This document shows positions 62,008 through 64,000 of a stretch of DNA of 64,000 nt, one piece after another. The stretch is from Nocardia jinanensis (lineage in GTDB: Bacteria; Actinomycetota; Actinomycetes; Mycobacteriales; Mycobacteriaceae), in assembly GCF_014645735.1 (NCBI RefSeq), contig NZ_BMMH01000002.1, forward strand, positions 434,001 through 498,000. Direction: 5' to 3'. Numbering within the stretch: position 1 is the stretch's first letter; every line of letters starts with the position of its first letter. The notes beneath the pieces are model-generated. The model did not search any database, was not told where the DNA came from, and saw only the letters and a list, made by a program, of their open reading frames with translations. The position numbers and the translations under genes are program-made.

Positions 62008-62454
62008 TCAGGAGCGATGGGGCAGGTTCTGCAACCGGACCTGACCGCGTGCGATCAGCCGGCCGTCCGCGTCGGTGACCACGACCTGCCAGAGTTGCTG
62101 CATCCCGCCGCGATGCAGCGGGGTGGCCTCGGCGCTGAGCTGCCCTTCGCGGACGGCGCGCAGGAAGTCGGTGTTGTTGTTGACACCGACCACCACGCCG
62201 CGTTCGCCGTACCAGGCGGCGCCGCCGGAACTGGCCAGCGTTTCCACCACGGTGCACAGCACCCCGCCGTTCTGGATTCCGGCGGGCTGGTGCAGCTGCG
62301 GCGTCACGGTCCATTCGCCGCGGACGCGGTCGGGCCCCAGCTCGGTCACGTGCAGACCCATCAGATCCGCGAAGGTCCCCTTGCTGATCTCGTTGAGTTG
62401 TTCGGCACTGAGATCGGCCGTCGACATCGGGGAGCGGGTCTGTTGTTCGGTCAT
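62008..62454 (-). CDS. Hotdog-fold thioesterase (Rv1847-like)
   Basis: 148 residues. PaaI-type hotdog protein: GIQNGGVLCTVVETLAS carries the conserved active-site region, and GVNNNTDFLRAVREG and LHRGGMQQLWQV follow. The end RLIARGQVRLQNL matches Rv1847 closely. It probably hydrolyses an acyl-CoA; substrate unknown. The ATG at 62454 gives the short acidic leader typical for the family. It lies about 60 bases downstream of the hairpin that ends the sRNA candidate, in the same direction. Confidence 0.92.
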   Translation of the reverse strand: MTEQQTRSPMSTADLSAEQLNEISKGTFADLMGLHVTELGPDRVRGEWTVTPQLHQPAGIQNGGVLCTVVETLASSGGAAWYGERGVVVGVNNNTDFLRAVREGQLSAEATPLHRGGMQQLWQVVVTDADGRLIARGQVRLQNLPHRS

Positions 62455-62512
62455 GGCTCAACAATCGCATGCTCGTCCCGGAAGCCGGAGTACGGGCCCG
62501 GAGGCCAGGAGC

Positions 62513-62615
62513 GGAAATGAAGCGGCGGACCCCACCTCCATGATGGGGTCCGCCGCGGGCATTGGATCGGGGGTCACCGCAGCCCTCGGGACTCTCGCGC
62601 GATCCGTACGCCGGT
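62513..62615 (-). ncRNA. mrsI: Candidate iron-responsive small RNA, MrsI-like
   Basis: About 100 nt from a predicted start near 62613-62615 to the hairpin at 62522-62556. The hairpin has 13 perfect pairs (GCGGCGGACCCCA and complement), a nine-base loop UCAUGGAGG and then UUCAUUUCC. The promoter just upstream is overlapped by an IdeR box. In M. tuberculosis the iron-sparing sRNA MrsI (ncRv11846) lies between blaI (Rv1846c) and Rv1847, divergent from blaI and in the direction of Rv1847. Here the neighbours and directions are the same, with one extra gene inserted. No coding potential is evident inside. Primary-sequence likeness to MrsI could not be checked. Confidence 0.7.
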
Positions 62616-62619
62616 ATCG

Positions 62620-62649
62620 AGTATAGGTCAGGCTTACCTAACTAAGCAA
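62620..62649 (-). promoter_or_regulatory. Promoter with IdeR box for the small RNA
   Basis: On the minus strand TTGCTT (62649-62644), an 18-base spacer and TATACT (62625-62620) form a good vegetative-type promoter. The box at 62623-62641 matches 17 of 19 positions of the IdeR consensus TWAGGTWAGSCTWACCTWA and covers the spacer, so iron-loaded IdeR should block transcription. Confidence 0.78.
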
Positions 62650-63349
62650 CACGTTGCGCACGCCGGATCGCCATACCGCGATCTTCCAGCGCCATCAGCA
62701 GCCCCTGACCCCGCCGCGCGCCCGCCACCGGATCGGTGCGAGCCAGGTCCGGGACGTAGGTGGCCGCACCGGAAACGGATTCGGCCACCAGCGCCCAGAA
62801 TCGACGCGAACTCAGACCCGCGCACCGCGCCAGCGCGCCCTGAACCAGCAGCAGCGACGGTTCGCAGCGATAGGCCAGCCACACCCACATCGCTCGCTCG
62901 CACGGTAGCGACACGACTCCGGGTGAACCTTCCAGCGGATCGCCCGCCACGACACGAATGGTGGTGTCGGTCAGGCCCGCCCAGTCGATCCCACCGTCGT
63001 TGTCGGTGTGGATCCACACGTTCTCCAAGCCGGGATCCCAGGCGCGGCCGTCGGCGATCCACAACGCCGCGACCCGGCCGACCACGGCGTGGATGAGGGC
63101 GGTGGCCACCACCTCCGACGCGGCGGTCGCGCTGATCATCTCCGCGACATGCCGCCGGTACATCAGATCGATCCGGCCCTCCCGCAGACCAGTCGACAGC
63201 GCCCACCAGCGCCGCTTGCCCTGCTCGGCCATGGCGGCGGCGGCATAGACACGCGGATGCTCCGGCTGCAGGGACCGTAACCGGGCACAGGCCGACCCGA
63301 ACGGCGCCTCGTACGGACGGGGGATGCGCACAGTGGCCAGTTCGGACAT
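62642..63349 (-). CDS. Iron-regulated protein, possibly FhuF-related
   Basis: 235 residues, with AGGAGGTT at ideal distance before the ATG at 63349. The middle region (ALIHAVVGRVAALWIADGRA followed by a D/N-rich VWIHTDNDGGIDW) resembles ferric-siderophore reductases of the FhuF type. The C-terminal CCxxY...CxxC iron-sulphur motif of FhuF is not present; only isolated cysteines are seen (PCERAM, YRCEP, ARCAG). An IdeR box overlaps its promoter, so it should be made when iron is low. Function in siderophore iron release or transport is inferred from that control. Confidence 0.7.
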   Translation of the reverse strand: MSELATVRIPRPYEAPFGSACARLRSLQPEHPRVYAAAAMAEQGKRRWWALSTGLREGRIDLMYRRHVAEMISATAASEVVATALIHAVVGRVAALWIADGRAWDPGLENVWIHTDNDGGIDWAGLTDTTIRVVAGDPLEGSPGVVSLPCERAMWVWLAYRCEPSLLLVQGALARCAGLSSRRFWALVAESVSGAATYVPDLARTDPVAGARRGQGLLMALEDRGMAIRRAQRVA

Positions 63350-63395: not shown

Positions 63396-63414
63396 ATAGG
63401 TTAGCCTAACCAGA
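63396..63414 (-). promoter_or_regulatory. IdeR/DtxR box of the iron-regulated gene
   Basis: ATAGGTTAGCCTAACCAGA with the perfect core GGTTAGCCTAACC (63399-63411), matching the IdeR consensus except at its ends. A possible -10 (TATCTT, 63398-63393) overlaps it. It lies 46 bases before the gene start. Confidence 0.85.
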
Positions 63415-63667: not shown

Positions 63668-64000
63668 ATGGCTGGACTTGGTGAGCTCGAGAAAGCGGTT
63701 ATGGACCAACTGTGGTCGGCCGATGAACCACAAACGGTCCGGCAGGTCCACGAGGCCCTGTCGGCGCGCCGCGAACTCGCCTACACCACGGTGATGACCG
63801 TGCTGCAGCGTCTCGCGAAGAAGAATCTGGTGGTGCAGCGACGCGACGATCGCGCCCACCGGTACGCTCCCGTACACACCCGCGACGAGCTGGTCGCCGG
63901 CCTCATGATGGACGCGCTGCAACAAGCGGACGAGGCCGGTAGCCGGGCCGCGGCCCTGGTGCACTTCGTGGAGCAGGTCGGCAAGGACGAGGCCGCGGCC
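63668..64000 (+). CDS. blaI: BlaI/MecI/CopY-family repressor (3' end beyond window)
   Basis: 111 codons visible, no stop before the window edge. The winged helix is clear: GELEKAVMDQLWSADEPQTV, then SARRELAYTTVMTVLQRLAK and the wing RRDDRAHRYAPVHTRDELVA. BlaI represses β-lactamase and other genes and is cleaved by the BlaR1 protease, whose gene probably follows outside the window. Orthologue of Rv1846c by neighbourhood. Confidence 0.93.
   Translation, partial: MAGLGELEKAVMDQLWSADEPQTVRQVHEALSARRELAYTTVMTVLQRLAKKNLVVQRRDDRAHRYAPVHTRDELVAGLMMDALQQADEAGSRAAALVHFVEQVGKDEAAA

Follow-up and report, generated by a model that had tools for sequence, protein, structure and literature searches.

RyhB, a Fur-controlled RNA of enterobacteria, is an iron-repressed small RNA (sRNA) with iron-sparing targets. 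An sRNA with an iron-sparing target set, IsrR, is also described in Staphylococcus in the passages on IsrR and MrsI that we consulted. The described system closest to the one analyzed here is MrsI (ncRv11846) of M. tuberculosis and M. smegmatis. In the excerpts available from three reviews, it is presented as a mycobacterial RNA of 100-106 nt, which lies between blaI and Rv1847 and possesses an IdeR box and a terminator (PMC8628891, PMC11188477, PMC12101431). The same excerpts describe a six-nt seed and a seven-nt apical loop, the size of which is given and the letters of which are not, and they name bfrA, hypF, and fprA as targets (PMC8628891, PMC11188477, PMC12101431). The literature on MrsI combined with Nocardia or Rhodococcus, and on Nocardia small RNAs and IdeR, was also searched, with subscription journals mostly uncovered; it contained no description of the RNA outside Mycobacterium.

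In this work, a stretch of 64,000 nucleotides from Nocardia jinanensis (the window) was analyzed. A sequence-only reading had noted an MrsI-like sRNA at positions 62513-62649, and this initial observation is real. The features of the locus are collected in Table 1. As far as the review excerpts describe MrsI, the window RNA agrees with it in the blaI/Rv1847-type locus and in direction, as well as in the predicted length of about 100 nt, the promoter IdeR box recognized by sequence, the 3′ terminator, and the seven-nt apical loop. We consider it very probable that the segment is the MrsI orthologue, which would be repressed by IdeR when iron is present and would bind, through its AGGGCUG loop, leader regions of mRNAs that encode dispensable iron proteins. 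The orthology is based on the locus, the structure, and the copies from other Mycobacterium species.

Table 1. Positions and strands of the sRNA, its control elements, and the neighboring genes in the window.
Feature	Position	Strand	Basis
Thioesterase gene with 4HBT hotdog fold, Rv1847-type by position	62008..62454	-	PF03061, 46.7 bits; TIGR00369, 65.5 bits
Predicted MrsI-like sRNA, about 100 nt	62515..62615	-	promoter and terminator positions, covariance models; both ends estimated
Terminator-like hairpin of 13 bp; nine-base loop variable, tail TTCATTT	62522..62556	-	read from sequence
Conserved 5′ domain, with outer stem GGAUCG/CGAUCC, an inner stem, and an apical loop of seven bases	62564..62605	-	structure counted on 57 copies
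Apical loop AGGGCUG, likely target-pairing seed	62580..62586	-	near-invariance; complement in Mycobacterium bfrA leaders
-10 element TATACT of predicted sRNA promoter	62620..62625	-	read from sequence; 18-base spacing to -35
IdeR-like box covering the spacer of the sRNA promoter	62623..62641	.	consensus match 16/19, by sequence
-35 element TTGCTT of predicted sRNA promoter	62644..62649	-	read from sequence
FhuF-like gene between sRNA and blaI	62642..63349	-	PF06276 (FhuF), 23.7 bits, just below curated 25.2
IdeR-like box of FhuF-like gene	63396..63414	.	three mismatches to the consensus used; chance expectation 0
Divergent blaI-type gene of the penicillinase repressor family, running off the window	63668..64000	+	PF03965, 94.1 bits

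The consensus-like promoter TTGCTT-N18-TATACT, as it had been described, is present on the minus strand (62649-62620). The IdeR-like box over it is also there, at a slightly weaker score than the 17/19 first assigned: 16 of the 19 positions of the consensus used here, to which all box scores are relative, are matched and three are not. Over 100 shuffles, the mean number of boxes with no more than three mismatches was 0. An IdeR-like box (at least 12/19) was found within 130 bases upstream of the core in 220 of the 228 unique copies of the RNA, compared with 6 of 666 control windows taken elsewhere in the same loci. The best box was surrounded by the pattern TTGnnn-N16-19-TAnnnT in 211 of 228 unique copies, compared with none of 672 same-size windows elsewhere in the loci. 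The set of 228 includes a few spurious entries (L137 twice and the second hit in L109), which were kept in the count. The 220 copies with an IdeR-like box were used for the counts on the loop, the reading frames, and the thioesterase. An open reading frame of at least 30 codons starts within the RNA body in 144 of 220 copies, as often happens in GC-rich DNA, but its start is not conserved, the commonest position being used in 69 of the 220. The sequence evidence supports a putative RNA gene that is IdeR-boxed, independently promoted, and about 100 nt long by prediction.

In the window, bases 62500-62613 folded better than shuffled sequences, with a z of -2.4 (3 of 200 shuffles were equally good). 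The most conserved part of the RNA is the 5′ domain. When the structure was counted on 57 copies, 98.0% of the cells in the outer helix of this domain were paired, with double changes in three of six pairs; the corresponding values for the inner helix were 88.9% and four of nine pairs. The terminator hairpin had double changes at all 13 pairs. For the whole structure, 93.0% of the cells were paired, and 20 of 28 pairs had double changes. None of 500 shuffles scored as high, and slid versions of the structure were 35-49% paired.

The apical loop reads AGGGCUG in 218 of the 220 copies. Its closing pair was U-A in 178, C-G in 36, and A-U in 5 copies, with one copy unpaired there. The agreement with the seven-nt loop of MrsI rests on covariation; by energy alone, the core in the window favors another fold, in which the loop has three bases. 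An inner fold with a three-base loop was also given by RNAalifold from 28 close copies; it was rejected, having double changes in one of nine inner pairs versus four of nine for the fold with the seven-base loop. On the 57 copies, two of the three inner helices of the rival three-base-loop fold had no double change, and the third had one pair with such a change. The 13-bp hairpin with a nine-base loop is present as previously described, and the tail that follows it, TTCATTT, is weak as a U tail. The sequence-only reading had assigned target pairing to the terminator loop UCAUGGAGG. This candidate was rejected, as the sequence of this loop differs among copies and the invariant loop is that of the 5′ domain. 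By its sequence conservation, AGGGCUG rather than the terminator loop is likely to be the seed. In one locus (L043:1501-1619), some 16 bases of the terminator loop are tandemly duplicated, and this locus gave the longest model match in its search.

In the case of the window's genus, a 161-base segment matched 56 of 59 genomes, and the three misses were two incomplete assemblies and one genome of 1340 contigs. A covariance search, which had been suggested along with the first observation, was then extended over the family. The model R1, built from 28 of 30 genus loci after dropping two with garbled contig ends (L014 and L016), matched 122 of 201 family genomes in 18 of 31 genera. At the end of L014 (1-300), a long single-base run lies beside the sRNA, which is probably an assembly artefact. 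The model R2, built from 57 copies across the family, matched 129 of 148 Mycobacterium genomes. A repeat search of 12 of the 19 Mycobacterium misses under looser filters gave only two matches, with E of 0.3-0.4. Nearly all hits of R1 and R2 were matched at full length. At the level of the order, 46 of 298 genomes matched, and all 46 belong to the window's family; among the misses listed, 9 came from this family and 11 from other families. A core pattern for slow growers gave 83 matching stretches, all of them in Mycobacterium or Mycolicibacterium.

The Mycobacterium copies at the blaI/thioesterase locus are homologous to the window RNA in sequence and structure. This result bears out the proposal of an MrsI-like sRNA outside Mycobacterium, as the homologous RNA occupies the locus where the reviews place MrsI. 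In a search of Rfam (release 15), the window had no match at gathering scores, and no match at the sRNA was found in loci L001, L074, and L133 at E up to 1. In the Mycobacterium locus L074, a 5_ureB_sRNA match of 56.5 bits was found at 476-759, at a distance of about 1.7 kb from the sRNA, and urease coding sequence may account for it.

Three Mycobacterium-group genomes showed a different state of the locus. In two genomes of 3.27 Mb (G319 and G354, loci L134 and L135), a size reminiscent of the leprosy bacilli, the sRNA adjoins blaI in decayed form, scoring 36.5 and 23 bits, and no thioesterase match was found beside it. In genome G531 (L264:411-543), blaI adjoins the thioesterase gene without the RNA core and without an IdeR-like box above 9/19.

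If AGGGCUG is the seed of MrsI, the leaders of bfrA are expected to carry CAGCCCU. Of 25 RNA-bearing Mycobacterium genomes, 10 have the exact CAGCCCT in the bfrA leader. It occurs in none of 20 genomes scored as without the RNA, a group that contains some fragmented assemblies and in which G531 was counted. The count in the 25 RNA-bearing genomes ranked first of 210 permutations, the mean of which was 0.37. Shorter sites were found in 17 (CAGCCC) and 21 (CAGCC) of the 25 leaders, compared with 0 of 20 for both in the genomes scored as without the RNA. The full 7-mer is absent from 15 of the 25. At many of the sites, the 7-mer immediately precedes the ribosome-binding site, at a distance of about 20-30 bases from the ATG. 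Two entries were dropped from the test, namely the second copy in G232 (L336) and genome G298, which has no close BfrA; in G449 and G345, BfrA gave no match. The duplex energy between the loop and the bfrA leader of the same genome was calculated for 22 of the 25 RNA-bearing genomes. The z value was below -1.5 in 10 of 22 pairs and positive in 4 of 22, which indicates a moderate advantage over shuffles. On the bfrA tree, the presence of the RNA changes four times, and the loss of the RNA and the loss of the site are clumped. Three independent pairs could be placed on supported branches; the CAGCC site went the same way in 2.6 of them on average and never the opposite way, and three pairs are too few for significance.

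The thioesterase gene lies downstream of the sRNA and is read in the same direction, as had been claimed. It starts 67 bases past the end of the terminator in the window, and in 187 of 220 copies a thioesterase gene follows the core at a distance of no more than 320 nt. A search of viral contigs for the thioesterase gave nothing. Such proximity would suit an arrangement in which the hairpins are the leader (attenuator) of the thioesterase mRNA, with IdeR controlling the thioesterase and the hairpin modulating read-through. We regard this as improbable. Among 219 copies with enough downstream sequence, 32 have no thioesterase within 320 nt (it is farther off in 19 and absent in 13), and these copies keep the box and the core. 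Moreover, the near-invariant 5′ loop has its complement in trans, in the bfrA leader.

A gene with its own IdeR-like box had been noted between the sRNA and blaI, and both the gene and the box were found (Table 1). The 3′ end of this FhuF-like gene overlaps the sRNA promoter, in which its stop codon lies. The RNA might accordingly be viewed as mainly a processed 3′-UTR product of the FhuF-like mRNA, with the box at the RNA start being incidental. This appears even less probable, as blaI is directly adjacent and divergent, without a FhuF-like match upstream, in 101 of 228 copies, and the box is kept in 220 of 228. A FhuF-like relative upstream of the sRNA was detected by tblastn in 108 of 228 copies. 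For an independently promoted MrsI, the same overlap may have another consequence: with a box of its own and its 3′ end within the sRNA promoter, the FhuF-like gene could also give transcripts that terminate at the sRNA terminator.

The presence of this gene between the RNA and blaI sets the window apart from the MrsI locus, and it had been read as a sign of how the locus changed. The gene is indeed present; its arrangement is not peculiar to this genome, as the same layout is common to many Mycobacterium genomes. In a quick tree of 150 loci, the label (FhuF-like or blaI) changes five times, and two of these changes are forced by starred branches, which indicates that the arrangement of the locus has changed more than once. 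That a convergent iron-responsive RNA occupies the same locus, homologous within the family but not to MrsI of M. tuberculosis, would fit with an alignment that covers other Mycobacterium copies and not the M. tuberculosis copy, but it has very little probability in view of the core sequence common to the slow-growing M. gastri, M. szulgai, and M. asiaticum, of the BlaI and thioesterase genes that flank the RNA in L257 (M. colombiense), L258 (Mycobacterium sp.), and L259 (M. celatum), and of the point-by-point agreement with the published MrsI features in the excerpts available.

The mode of action proposed for the MrsI orthologue is as follows. Iron-loaded IdeR would repress the sRNA promoter, and the repression would be lifted when iron is short. 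The AGGGCUG loop would then base-pair with mRNA leaders of dispensable iron proteins, which would likely lower the translation of these mRNAs and save iron. The likeness to RyhB and IsrR is that of an iron-repressed, iron-sparing sRNA, a mode of action which for the window RNA is predicted only. Neither RNA is known to be related to MrsI. The regulator of the window RNA would be IdeR, a member of the DtxR family, and its predicted seed lies in a closed apical loop; on these points it is set apart from RyhB and IsrR.

The targets in the window's genus appear to differ from those in Mycobacterium. MrsI acts on bfrA according to the review excerpts, whereas no conserved site was found in 11 bfrA leaders of the genus. 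The 7-mer occurred in one of the 11, about 75 bases upstream and apparently within the preceding ORF, and bfrA was rejected as a target in this genus. The genome of the window has three ferritin-family genes, none of which is a close BfrA. The ferritin (BfrB-type) mRNA was rejected as well. Its start was found in 29 of 30 loci, the 29 leaders contained no CAGCCCT and no conserved site, and a single leader had AGCCCT at -28. Around the start of the aconitase gene in the window, no site was found. The ferritin (BfrB-type) genes of the genus (L307:1530-1640 in G000:C10; L266-L295) are preceded by several AAGGCAACACT-like half-boxes and by a ACTTGGATGAC-like stretch. By sequence, these elements are suggestive of direct IdeR control.

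The pattern CAGCCCT placed before a ribosome-binding site and ATG was searched in 49 genomes of the genus. It gave 215 matches compared with 223 for the reversed pattern, and no overall excess of such leader sites was observed in these genomes. Among the matches listed, a recurrent site stands before the gene for a KshA-like Rieske [2Fe-2S] oxygenase; the genome of the window has this site as well. In the orthologous leaders of this gene, which was picked post hoc after seeing the pattern, CAGCCC was present in 15 of 29 (13 of the 15 at -24 to -28) and CAGCCCT in 7 of 29; the set leaves out L440, which is partial, and hits without loci. The KshA-like oxygenase is the best target candidate in the window's genus and should be treated as a lead from sequence. 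Also among the matches listed, CAGCCCTCGGGAGTATGG was found at L402:529-547, and the same string occurs in G013, G029, and G044, that is, in four genomes of the genus. The gene that follows it is acyl-CoA dehydrogenase-like by eye. It is a second recurrent candidate site, before no obvious iron protein.

The family-wide, IdeR-boxed sRNA gene is most likely MrsI, the range of which is thereby extended and the seed of which is pointed to. The data further suggest a turnover of targets between Mycobacterium and the window's genus. It is possible, and we propose it tentatively, that MrsI spares iron throughout the family by means of a frozen seed of seven bases, AGGGCUG, and that its targets have turned over: bfrA in Mycobacterium would have given way to a Rieske iron-sulphur oxygenase in the genus of the window, and the bfrA site would have disappeared where the RNA was lost. 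The family-wide set of copies provides a covariation-supported structure of MrsI together with a pointer to its seed. Genomes with and without the RNA form a natural comparison set, and harmless relatives can be used for testing the iron-sparing mechanism, in which a frozen seed apparently meets changing targets.
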